Source: an uncultured SAR86 cluster bacterium (lineage in GTDB: Bacteria > Pseudomonadota > Gammaproteobacteria > Magnimaribacterales > TMED112). From it: a DNA stretch of 64,000 bases. This document shows positions 3,525 through 8,356 of this stretch, in pieces. Below the pieces are notes generated by a model, which saw nothing but the letters and a program-made list of their open reading frames with translations, was not told where the DNA came from and ran no database searches. Made by a program: the position numbers and the translations under genes. Each line of letters opens with the position of its first letter. Position 1 is the first letter of the stretch. Location of the stretch: the NCBI GenBank assembly GCA_902526535.1, contig CABZLG010000001.1:1-64000 (forward strand). The letters are read 5' to 3'.

Positions 3525-4323
3525 CTAGCCATGTCTTTTTATTAATTTAACAGCCCATTTGATGATCTCAGGGTTTTTCTCAACATCGAGAATAAACTCT
3601 TGTCCAAACCCTCTATAAAAAATTGTACATTTTTTTTTATTTCGCCATTTCATTCTGTTCAAAAATAGATCGCTTGAATTCTTAAAATATTTAGAAGGAA
3701 GTTTCCATTTTGATCTAGATCTATTAACTTCGGTAAGGATTAAATCTTTATGAGTTTTTTTGAAAAGACCATACCCTTTTTTGGAAATTGCTTTTTTATT
3801 TAGCTCAAGATTTTTTTTGCCTACGTAAATAGTGTTGTTTTTATATCTATCTACGTTTCTGTATCCGTGAGGGTGAAGAATATTATTGCTTTTGAGAAAC
3901 TTTTTAATTTGTTGATGTCCTTCAATTATTTTTTCAATTTGCAGCCATCCAAATAGATGATGGCAGTCGGCACCCCTTAAGGAAAAATTTTTAAACCACC
4001 CAAAAAAACATAAAAAGGTCACCCTTTCCGACTTGATTGTTTCTTAACTCTGTTTGGGAGGAATTTGCTTGCCCAAAAATACCAATTTTTTCATCAAGCA
4101 TAGGATCAGTATGGCAATAGTCTGAAAGAGAAGTTTTAGAGGACGATTCAAATAATAATTGAGATCCTGATACGCCATCAAAATTTAAATCTCTATATTT
4201 TTTGGGAGAGGGATTTTTTTGCGGAATTGGGATTGAAAAAATTCTTCCATCGTGAAATATTGGTGATGCATTTCCTCCCGCTTTTGCATCAAAACCTTTT
4301 CTGCTTAGGATAATTCTTTTCAA
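3525..4323 (-). pseudogene. Nmad3-like (nucleotide modification associated domain 3) gene split by a +1 frameshift
   Basis: ORF 3991..4323 (MKRIILSRKGFDAKAGGNASPIFHDGRIFSIPIP...GKGDLFMFF) continues as ORF 3525..4022 (FFGWFKNF...HLFGWLQIEKI...HPHGYRN...GQEFILD) if one T is removed from the T7 run at 4002-4008. Confidence 0.65.
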
Positions 4324-4777: not shown

Positions 4778-5014
4778 TTAACTTTTAAACCTTTTTATGA
4801 AGTTATTCCACATATCTTTGCTTTTTTGTATTATTTCTGGACCCAATAATGCAACTCCAGGATACCAAGTTACTTGGCTAGCCAAATATATTCCGCCACC
4901 TTTAAGCAACTCTCCAGTAGTAGCCACAAAAACACTGATAAAAGTCAAAATGATGGAAATGATAATGAGTGCCCAACCAGTAATTTTTCGTAATTTAGTT
5001 AAAGTCGATATCAT
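4778..5014 (-). CDS. small membrane protein, unknown
   Basis: 78 aa ORF with hydrophobic segments. Confidence 0.4.
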   Translation of the reverse strand: MISTLTKLRKITGWALIIISIILTFISVFVATTGELLKGGGIYLASQVTWYPGVALLGPEIIQKSKDMWNNFIKRFKS

Positions 5015-5015
5015 T

Positions 5016-5306
5016 TTAGGTTATTAACTTAGGAATTATTCCTAATTGGGCAAGAATACCAAAGATAATTAACAATATTACACTAGAGAGCATTCTAAAA
5101 TTCTTCTTTAGAATCCATTCAAGCAGTTTCTCTATAAATTTTCTTATCCATAGATCAACTTTATTCATCCATTTAAGAGCTTTTCTTGTCCATTTGTCAG
5201 TCATGTCTATTATTGACAGAGAAAGAACCGCAATGATAAGCCACACAAAACCATTAAGGATCATGTCAATAATCCAACCTATTGCTGTCCAATTTATTTC
5301 CATCAT
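5016..5306 (-). CDS. small membrane protein, unknown
   Basis: 96 aa ORF, two TM segments flanking an amphipathic middle. Confidence 0.4.
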   Translation of the reverse strand: MMEINWTAIGWIIDMILNGFVWLIIAVLSLSIIDMTDKWTRKALKWMNKVDLWIRKFIEKLLEWILKKNFRMLSSVILLIIFGILAQLGIIPKLIT

Positions 5307-5314
5307 TTTGTCTC

Positions 5315-5350
5315 AAAAAATAAACATCTTGTAAGTGAAGTTTATTTTTT
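5315..5350 (-). terminator. perfect 11-bp inverted repeat AAAAAATAAAC-N14-GTTTATTTTTT, candidate terminator
   Basis: Exact inverted repeat; lies just beyond the glmS 3'-end remnant and ends in T6 on the minus strand. Confidence 0.45.
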
Positions 5351-5365
5351 AATCACTGTTTAAAA

Positions 5366-5386
5366 TTACTCCACCGTGACTGACTT
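5366..5386 (-). pseudogene. glmS': remnant of a glmS 3' end (KSVTVE-stop)
   Basis: Minus-strand AAG TCA GTC ACG GTG GAG TAA = KSVTVE*, identical in peptide to the end of intact GlmS (NLAKSVTVE*) but with different codons (15/21 nt identical). Confidence 0.65.
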
Positions 5387-5423
5387 GAATTGTATCTATT
5401 AGTTTTATTTTTCAAGTTCATCT

Positions 5424-6506
5424 TTAGTCATACATTAATTTCTTTTGATCAATATATTCCTGTAATTTCCTTCCTTCCAAAGACACTGTCTTGGGACCCT
5501 TTCTTTTAAAAAAGATCTCTTTATTTTTGTACTTTACAAATATATTGACTGGTGTGGGGTTTACATTGATCCTACAGATTGTTTTATTTTCAACATTAAT
5601 AGTAGAGATATCAATAACGTCTGGTAGGTTCATTACATCTGGGTCTGTATTGTTTTCAATTTGTTGAGTTAAAGACCTAAGGAACTCATCTAGATCATTA
5701 AATTCATCTACTTCAATACCAACTATTTTATTTTTATCAGAAACACCGATTAATAAATCTCCCCCTCCTGTGTTACAAAACCCTCCAATGGTCTTCATGA
5801 CACTGTGAATCATTTCTGATTCGGGAATTTGACCTCCGTGATCAATGTCTTTTCTAAGACTTGATTTAAATTCTAGGTAACTATTCTCATGATCTTTTGA
5901 TAGTTTTATAATTGGATCTTGGAAATATTCTTCAACTAGATTTTTTAGAAATTTTTTTTGACCCTCTTCTAATTTTCCTTTTTTTATTGAGTCTAGTAGT
6001 TCTGTCTCTTGTATTTTGTGTTTTCTTTCTTTTTGAATTTTTTTTTGGAGTTCTTCTTGGGGAATTTTTGATATCTCTATCTCAACCAATTCTCGTACAC
6101 TAAGAAAAGGGATTACACTACCTTTCAACCTCCTTTCACATTGTAGTTCAAAGTTTTTATAGAACTCTTCTACTTTGAGATAGTCAGACAAGTAATCATT
6201 CATTTTTGTTCTTAAAACTATCCAGTTATTTCCAATGAAACATGGAGGGTCTGATTCCTTGAATTGGTAAACTTTTCTTTTGGGGAAGATGCTTGAAACA
6301 ACAATATCTCCTGGTTTTAAAATAAATTTATCGTATTTTTCATCACCCTCAAAGAACCTATCTGTTTTTTTGTTTGTAACTAATTCTCCTTTTTCTAAGT
6401 GTCTGGGAGTGAGATAAAGGTACCCCCCAGATGAGTTTGTCTGTTCTTTCGTTAAAAACCTTCCACTGAAAATTCCTTCTAACTCTTTTAATTTAAAGTT
6501 ACTCAA
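5424..6506 (-). CDS. type I restriction HsdS-like N-terminus fused to AlbA_2 (Schlafen-like) DNA/RNA-binding domain
   Basis: N-term LKPGDIVVSSIFPKRKVYQF...GNNWIVLRTK...RRLKGSVIPFLSVRELVEIEISKIPQEEL is TRD-like; C-term YLEFKSSLRKD...IGGFCNTGGGDLLIGVSDKNKIVGIE is AlbA_2; TTG start 23 nt after the glmS stop. Confidence 0.75.
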   Translation of the reverse strand: MSNFKLKELEGIFSGRFLTKEQTNSSGGYLYLTPRHLEKGELVTNKKTDRFFEGDEKYDKFILKPGDIVVSSIFPKRKVYQFKESDPPCFIGNNWIVLRTKMNDYLSDYLKVEEFYKNFELQCERRLKGSVIPFLSVRELVEIEISKIPQEELQKKIQKERKHKIQETELLDSIKKGKLEEGQKKFLKNLVEEYFQDPIIKLSKDHENSYLEFKSSLRKDIDHGGQIPESEMIHSVMKTIGGFCNTGGGDLLIGVSDKNKIVGIEVDEFNDLDEFLRSLTQQIENNTDPDVMNLPDVIDISTINVENKTICRINVNPTPVNIFVKYKNKEIFFKRKGPKTVSLEGRKLQEYIDQKKLMYD

Positions 6507-6529
6507 TTTAACGCACCTTCATAATCGGC

Positions 6530-8356
6530 CTACTCCACAGTAACGCTCTTTGCAAGGTTGCGGGGTTTATCTACATCAGTGCCCTTAAGAAGTGCTGTGT
6601 AATATGAAATAAGCTGCATTGGTACAACTGAGATAATTGGATTAAGGAGATCTAGTGTTTTTGGAATTTTAATATGACCACCGTCTTTGGTAATTTTTGT
6701 TTTACCTAACGGACCTATAGTTACAACCTTGCCCTTTCTCGCTGCAACCTCTTGAATATTTGATTGAATTTTATCTAAATGTTCATTATCTGGAACTAAA
6801 GCAATAACTGGCATGTCACGATCTATCAATGCAAGTGGTCCATGTTTTAGTTCACCTGCAGGGTAGGCTTCTGCATGAATGTATGAAATTTCTTTTAATT
6901 TTAGGGCGCCCTCTCTGGCTATTGGAAAATATAAGCCTCTACCAAGGAAAAGAGCACTACTTCTTTTAAATAAAAGTTTAGCAGTAGACTTATAAATATC
7001 TGTCATCTTTAAAGTTTTATCTATATGTTTAGGCAAATCTCTTAAAGCATCTGTAATTTTCTTTCTAGCGTTAGGTGTTTGATTGTGTACTCTCATAAGA
7101 GTTAGCAGAAGCAAATTCAAACACGCCAATTGAGTAACAAAAGCCTTGGTTGAGGCCACACCAATTTCGGGACCAGCATTTGTAAGCAATGTATAGTCAG
7201 ATTCTCTGCATAATGAACTATTAGCAACATTACAAATCGTTAACGTAATAGGTGCTCCAGTTTTTTTTGCAAATTTTAATGAAGATAGAGTGTCTGCTGT
7301 TTCACCAGACTGTGAAATAGTAACTAATAGAGTTTTTTTGGTTTTGATTGGCTCCTGGTATTGATATTCAGATCCATAATCAACACGACAATTGATGCCC
7401 AAAAATTTATGTGACCAATATTCAAAAATTCTGCCAGAATGGTAACTAGTACCACAAGCAATGATCTGAATGTTTGTCACATCCTTTACAGCTTCTTCAA
7501 AACCTGAACCAAAGATACCCTCTTGTGTCTCATTTTTACCGAGCCTGCCTTCAATGGATTGTGAAATGGCATCAGGCTGTTCAAAAATTTCTTTCTCCAT
7601 AAAATGGTTATAGCCACCTAAATCATTTGTGTATGAATTAGAGTCTATTTCCTGTGTTTTTAATTTTGCAGTATTGCCTTTTGAAGTTATGACACGGTTT
7701 TTTTCTTTAGTTATAAATGCCACTTGACCATCTTCCATAAATTTAAATTTATTCGTCACTGGAGCAAGCGCCATTATGTCTGAAGCAACAAAATTCTCAT
7801 CGTAACCCTCTCCTATAACAAGAGGGCTCTGGTTTCTTGCGCCAATAATTAAATCAGGATTATCTTTGTCTATTATGGCTAAAGCATAAGCTCCTTTAAG
7901 TTGTGAAATAGCTTTGAGTGTTGCCGAATCAAAATCCATACCCTTTTGCATTTGCAGATTGATTAGATGAGCTACAACTTCAGTATCAGTATCAGATCGA
8001 AATTTCACTCCTTCACTTTTAAGTTTTTCTTTAAGGTTCAGGTGATTTTCAATAATGCCGTTATGAACAACAAAAATCTTATTTTCAGAAATTTGTGGGT
8101 GAGCATTTTTTTCTGACGGCACACCATGAGTTGCCCATCTGGTATGTGCAATGCCTTGGTTGCTTTTAATTTTCTTTTCAGGTAATTTATTTTCAAGATC
8201 TAATACTCTGCCCTTAGCCTTTATTAGGGAAATCTCACTGTTTTCTCTAAAAGCAACTCCAGCAGAATCATACCCACGATATTCCAGTCTTTTTAATCCT
8301 TCGATTAAGATTGGTAAAACATTTCTATCCGAAACACCACCAACGATACCGCACAT
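6530..8356 (-). CDS. glmS: glutamine-fructose-6-phosphate aminotransferase (isomerizing)
   Basis: MCGIVGG start, two SIS domains, C-terminus NLAKSVTVE. Confidence 0.98.
   Translation of the reverse strand: MCGIVGGVSDRNVLPILIEGLKRLEYRGYDSAGVAFRENSEISLIKAKGRVLDLENKLPEKKIKSNQGIAHTRWATHGVPSEKNAHPQISENKIFVVHNGIIENHLNLKEKLKSEGVKFRSDTDTEVVAHLINLQMQKGMDFDSATLKAISQLKGAYALAIIDKDNPDLIIGARNQSPLVIGEGYDENFVASDIMALAPVTNKFKFMEDGQVAFITKEKNRVITSKGNTAKLKTQEIDSNSYTNDLGGYNHFMEKEIFEQPDAISQSIEGRLGKNETQEGIFGSGFEEAVKDVTNIQIIACGTSYHSGRIFEYWSHKFLGINCRVDYGSEYQYQEPIKTKKTLLVTISQSGETADTLSSLKFAKKTGAPITLTICNVANSSLCRESDYTLLTNAGPEIGVASTKAFVTQLACLNLLLLTLMRVHNQTPNARKKITDALRDLPKHIDKTLKMTDIYKSTAKLLFKRSSALFLGRGLYFPIAREGALKLKEISYIHAEAYPAGELKHGPLALIDRDMPVIALVPDNEHLDKIQSNIQEVAARKGKVVTIGPLGKTKITKDGGHIKIPKTLDLLNPIISVVPMQLISYYTALLKGTDVDKPRNLAKSVTVE

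Follow-up and report, generated by a model that had tools for sequence, protein, structure and literature searches.

A half type I specificity subunit fused to a Schlafen-like AlbA_2 domain, encoded behind glmS in a SAR86 cluster bacterium

Half HsdS proteins, Schlafen RNases and an RNase that stands beside a type I restriction enzyme are all known. Dimers of half HsdS subunits can function as specificity subunits (PMC6158711; PMC3320862), and half HsdS proteins show activity in combination with HsdM (PMC6158711). In rat SLFN13, the active site consists of E205, E210 and D248, where any single mutation lowered cleavage and the E205A and E210A proteins were inactive (PMC5862951), and the AlbA-type fragment of SAMD9 (156-385) cleaves tRNA alone (PMC12331169). 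PrrC is held in EcoprrI and is released on T4 infection (PMC3874165).

Here, we describe a protein in which a half HsdS and an AlbA_2 domain are combined in one chain. It is encoded in the window, the whole analysed stretch of 64,000 nucleotides from a small-genome bacterium. With HsdS (1YF2 and EcoKI 2Y7C) and with half HsdS proteins (EcoR124INT and engineered half-S) it has in common the sequence and fold of the target-recognition domain (TRD) and a spacer-like helix, but it differs from HsdS in having one TRD rather than two, a C-terminal Schlafen domain and no HsdM in the assembly. The AlbA_2 fold is shared with SLFN13, SLFN11, SLFN14 and the tRNase domain of SAMD9, and the E/E/D triad of SLFN13 is aligned; whereas the animal Schlafens have two lobes, the window protein has a single lobe attached to a DNA-reader half. 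A dimer could stand in for the second lobe. The likeness to PrrC of EcoprrI is confined to the proposed logic, in which an RNase stands beside a type I enzyme to back up its defence as a second line. No account of a half-HsdS-AlbA_2 family was found in the open-access literature other than preprints, and no description of the fusion was found in open-access papers naming Schlafen or AlbA_2 with type I restriction.

Domain make-up and predicted structure of the fusion protein

The features of the gene and its product are as follows.

5424..6506, minus strand: half-HsdS-AlbA_2 fusion CDS, an intact ORF of 360 aa with a TTG start, stop codon included
6514..6519, minus strand: AAGGTG, Shine-Dalgarno-like by resemblance to the consensus only, 7 nt upstream of the TTG
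6033..6506, minus strand: residues 1-158, type I specificity-subunit-like target-recognition half (PADLOC, Pfam, Foldseek)
5925..6059, minus strand: residues 150-194, charged helical linker (AlphaFold helices), at the position that the spacer helix has in HsdS
5481..5888, minus strand: residues 207-342, Schlafen/AlbA_2 domain (PF04326, Foldseek)
5871..5888, minus strand: predicted triad acids E207 (5886-5888) and E212 (5871-5873) in an ExxxxEFK motif, by alignment to SLFN13 E205/E210
5736..5738, minus strand: third predicted triad acid D257, by alignment to SLFN13 D248

Of the PADLOC Specificity_I models, 14 matched the target-recognition half, the best with an E-value of 1.5e-11, and Pfam Methylase_S (PF01420) matched 6033-6500 in the genome search with a score of 25.2 bits (cut-off, 22), while it was not listed by hmmscan of the fusion protein alone. 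SLFN_AlbA_2 (PF04326) was matched at residues 207-342 with an E-value of 7.5e-17 and 62.4 bits against a curated cut-off of 25.3, and with an E-value of 2.9e-18 in the genome search of the assembly. At these E-values, the two predicted domain assignments are not a matter of chance. The chain thus holds one TRD, then a helix and then AlbA_2, and it stops after the AlbA_2 domain. PrrC is a different, ATPase-type nuclease, and Pfam gave no match to a PrrC/ATPase domain in the fusion protein. The PADLOC search gave no match of the mad5 model at E<=1 for the fusion protein and weak matches in its relatives. Membership in MADS, PrrC or the BREX-type Schlafens was accordingly rejected by Pfam and PADLOC.

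An AlphaFold2 model was built on 31 aligned sequences, comprising the window protein and loci from genome contigs. Its mean pLDDT was 86.5 with a pTM of 0.53, which indicates that the individual domains are well predicted, but not their mutual placement; the linker was modelled as helices at 150-175 and 181-194, and the pLDDT drops to about 59 near residue 195. Foldseek against the PDB returned HsdS-type matches (Esub1 8vsr, 1yf2, PacII S, S.BsaXI and EcoKI), of which Esub1 8vsr was at the top with an E-value of 7e-9 and a TM of 0.66 by target, and Schlafen-type matches (SAMD9 7ksp and 9o0d, DIP2311, SLFN13 5yd0, SLFN11 and SLFN14). HsdS-type and Schlafen-type structures were also retrieved by a sequence profile of the fusion protein and four relatives with an MTase-TRD-AlbA_2 order. 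Esub1 (8VSR, 8VSQ), the best solved-structure match of the TRD half by both fold and sequence, is a single-TRD protein of 198-206 aa, the solved chain of which is without an AlbA_2 domain, and no account of its biology was found in the open-access literature. The half HsdS, helical linker and AlbA_2 order proposed in the initial annotation is therefore backed by sequence profiles, model and fold search alike, and the structure prediction it had suggested as a check gave an HsdS-type fold for the N-terminal half and a Schlafen fold for the C-terminal one.

The profile alignment to 5yd0 pairs SLFN13 E205/E210/D248 with E207/E212/D257 of the fusion protein, where D248 was taken as the second D of GVDD by a manual residue count. 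By this alignment, the fusion protein carries the E/E/D catalytic triad of the Schlafen RNases. The three acids are invariant in 31 aligned relatives and in 81/81 sequences, including all 80 best genome matches, and they lie outside the pattern that was used to find the loci. K214, R218, K238, N245, D273 and R335 are likewise invariant in 81/81, the invariance of K238 and N245 being partly built in because both lie in that pattern.

The spot behind glmS

The window sequence bears out that the gene starts with TTG 23 nt behind the stop of glmS (6530-8356), in the same orientation as glmS, glmU and the atp genes. The fusion gene was found in one of the 21 genomes of the genus; the 20 other congeners were searched without a copy being found, and glmS was seen in 15 of these 20, mostly followed by other genes. 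The DNA identity to the sister genome G009 reaches the glmS stop (6530) and returns at 5303, the start of a small membrane gene, which defines the following interval.

5304..6529, no strand: variable interval from the glmS stop to the conserved small membrane gene, holding the fusion gene alone

The GlmS ends of G009 and G015 are 99% identical to that of the window. Behind glmS, G009 has a type II restriction enzyme, G015 has the type III genes Mod and Res together with a fragment of a type II methylase and a restriction enzyme, G008 has an HNH restriction enzyme and G018 has an SRA-HNH protein, and the remaining related genomes have other genes there. The spot behind glmS is a restriction hotspot. 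The gene is thus placed in a variable spot of restriction genes. A recombinase fragment accompanies the restriction genes of G015 where the window holds the fusion gene (L031, G015:C7).

As to its neighbors on the other side, the two small membrane ORFs (4778-5306) noted downstream of the gene are indeed present. Both belong to gene clusters conserved in the genus, with nine members apiece including the window copy, and they are not partners of the fusion protein because they are present in related genomes without the fusion gene. A SnoaL gene is also common in the genus and has no link to the fusion protein. Separately, a gene of the Nmad3 (nucleotide-modification-associated) kind at 3525-4323 on the minus strand is split into overlapping ORFs, 3991-4323 and 3525-4022, whereas its homologue in G015 is a single ORF of 265 aa, so that the split represents a frameshift or an assembly error.

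Neither N6_Mtase (PF02384) nor HSDR_N (PF04313) was matched in the window, as the initial annotation had said of hsdM and hsdR, or in the rest of the 771-kb, 71%-complete assembly, in which the fusion gene is the single Methylase_S match and the single AlbA_2 match. This orphan status may change because the assembly is incomplete. The suggestion that the protein is a stand-alone one holds for this 71%-complete assembly, but not for the family, in which the two members whose upstream context can be read lie in type I operons, as described below.

Relatives of the whole protein and of its AlbA_2 domain

The family was uncovered by an alignment-based scan of 84,980 species genomes, whereas a single-sequence scan of genome contigs retrieved no members. 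Three near-full-length relatives from separate MAGs (29-31% identity, E 4e-47 to 2e-37) were obtained.

L108, JAKPSH010000194.1: Pseudomonadota MAG, aligned over residues 8-355, E 4e-47
L109, JAOAPR010000061.1: Bryobacterales MAG, residues 26-352, E 7e-43
L110, JAHJQK010000119.1: Proteobacteria MAG, residues 6-351, E 2e-37

They have the same order of parts as the window protein and a family-specific TRD, and the helical linker of L108 and L109 is longer. L109 lies immediately downstream of hsdM, hsdS and hsdR, and L108 downstream of hsdS and hsdM; the neighborhood of homologs, which had been put forward as a further check, is hence for these two that of type I restriction operons, whereas the window copy is alone behind glmS. 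Both operons already contain a full HsdS. L110 begins near a contig edge, which leaves its upstream context unreadable. Besides the window copy, there was no full-length match in 21 genus, 203 order, 369 class and 399 phylum genomes, so the family is rare. Searches of the genomes of the order, plasmids and viral contigs gave at most matches to the AlbA_2 part and no full-length one, and phages gave no match to the fusion protein.

By BLASTP, the window TRD matched those of L108, L109 and L110 with E-values of 1e-19 to 1e-22, compared with a best E-value of 0.056 against 24 HsdS entries, which came from the same and other loci with a few listed twice. Because the TRDs are closest to each other and not to HsdS, this looks like one family and not like repeated fusions. 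Derivation from a truncated MTase-TRD-AlbA_2 protein was also considered and is not favored, as the compact form is intact in three other MAGs and the TRDs are most alike mutually. Furthermore, the TRDs of L108 and L109 are 66% identical though the MAGs are filed under different phyla, which is unusual for TRDs and suggests transfer together with a fixed target or partner.

Among the 80 nearest AlbA_2 relatives in the 84,980 genomes, which were classed by BLAST against a few reference proteins with a Pfam check on ten proteins, 55 are C-terminal domains of HsdR, four are fusions to GmrSD (DUF262), three are half HsdS and one is MTase-like-TRD, and the remainder includes unclassified proteins as well as cNMP-binding and transmembrane ones. 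The HsdR proteins that end in an AlbA_2 domain with the full triad occur in bacterial MAGs of many phyla, among L111-L187 (for example, L111:2968-6525, L120:2968-6498 and L140:3151-6636), and may amount to a more far-reaching result than the gene of the window. A second architecture consists of an N6-MTase-like domain, a TRD and AlbA_2. A plasmid of Pseudoalteromonas carries it next to hsdM, hsdS and hsdR; it also occurs in a Flavobacteriaceae MAG (L115) beside hsdS and hsdM, and in further examples (L006, L060, L061 and L078), with coordinates of L007:4072-6423, L115:4891-6849, L006:361-2094, L060:496-2214 and L078:811-2469. In place of NPPY/F, their motif IV reads FPPI, MPPW, DIPF, NFPL, ILPI or DIPL; because this motif appears degenerate by eye, they are probably not active methylases. 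The HsdR, GmrSD and MTase-like-TRD proteins thus have a C-terminal AlbA_2 group in common with the window protein, with a domain identity of up to 41%, but differ from it in their N-terminal parts, which are a motor/nuclease, GmrSD or an MTase-like domain with the degenerate motif IV.

AlbA_2 was also seen joined to a cyclic-nucleotide-binding domain, PF00027 (L158:5668-6570), and behind transmembrane segments (L187 and others), which suggests that one output module may be wired to a variety of sensors. In genomes of the order, it was accompanied by other N-terminal parts (L003:757-2022, L004:913-2109 and L005:1471-2844), two with repeats that are Myb/SANT-like by eye and one of another kind.

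Possible function and implications

The explanation that we prefer, and to which we give an even chance, is that the fusion protein is a horizontally acquired defence protein derived from type I restriction, predicted to act as a DNA-guided Schlafen RNase in abortive defence. The defence reading is supported by the position of relatives in type I operons, the occurrence of the nearest AlbA_2 relatives mostly on HsdR and the variable spot of restriction genes. In this mechanism, the helix would pair two copies of the fusion protein, or one copy with HsdM/HsdS, and the TRDs of the homodimer or of the HsdM complex would read a DNA site; sequence-specific recognition by the TRD half is suggested by its fold. 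The AlbA_2 domains, for which RNase activity is predicted, would act as a Schlafen-type RNase, and the binding of unmodified invading DNA, or a disturbance of a resident type I enzyme, would release the cleavage of RNA, probably tRNA, so that translation stops, as with PrrC released from EcoprrI. In the window genome, the protein may work alone or with a methylase encoded outside the assembled 71%.

Some of the evidence would also suit an accessory or alternative type I specificity factor, in which HsdM (and HsdR) would be brought by the half HsdS to a palindromic site not recognised before, while AlbA_2 serves for dimerisation or nucleic-acid binding with no nuclease function, given that the N-terminal half is HsdS-like by profile and fold, that hsdM and hsdS adjoin the relatives and that such halves show activity when combined with HsdM (PMC6158711). 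We consider this rather doubtful, since a full HsdS is already present in the operons of the relatives, no hsdM was found in the 71%-complete assembly and the invariant triad would be left unexplained. It is unlikely that the gene is a decaying or silent leftover, without present function, from a type I-associated system that was formerly complete; the intact ORF with its ribosome-binding-like site, the retention of all the predicted catalytic residues and the intact compact form in three other MAGs speak against it, although the orphan state in the incomplete assembly, the presence in one of 21 genus genomes and the TTG start would be in line with such decay.

The variable spot and the recombinase fragment at the matching place in G015 could be taken to mean that the gene serves a mobile element, with its half HsdS competing with a resident HsdS as an anti-restriction protein or decoy, but the relatives lie within host restriction operons and phages, plasmids and viral contigs gave no full-length match, which makes this very improbable. 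A housekeeping regulator tied to glmS or the atp-glm operon, as might be supposed from the co-orientation and the distance of 23 nt, is scarcely credible because it is contradicted by the patchy presence, the gene being missing from all 20 other congeners, 15 of which show glmS. Thus, of the two roles offered by the initial annotation, defence or regulation, the former gains from the genomic context, and nothing found favors a purely regulatory one.

Several points count against the preferred explanation of a DNA-guided RNase. There is no hsdM or hsdR in the assembly, though this is 71% complete, and there is a single lobe compared with two in the animal Schlafens. The TRD conservation of 66% is unlike that of a typical diversifying DNA reader. 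In addition, AlbA_2 of the same group is present on signalling-like proteins, namely cNMP-binding and transmembrane ones, and its role may therefore be regulatory and non-toxic.

In a broader and more tentative reading, which we regard as possible but on the less probable side, Schlafen AlbA_2 domains on HsdR, on the probably inactive MTase-TRD, on half HsdS and on GmrSD would constitute a class of DNA-licensed RNases, in which foreign or unmodified DNA leads to RNA cleavage, and the half-HsdS protein would be its simplest representative, encoded by one gene and equipped with a fixed-specificity TRD. If the reading is true, a predicted RNase domain can be assigned to numerous HsdR proteins, which make up 55 of the 80 best matches; no discussion of this domain was found in the open-access literature. 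Three predicted catalytic residues, E207, E212 and D257, are now named. In that case, restriction-modification and Schlafen RNases, which are usually treated as separate immune strategies, would be physically joined in bacteria, and the window protein, with its 360 aa, would rank among the very small RNases that sense DNA.
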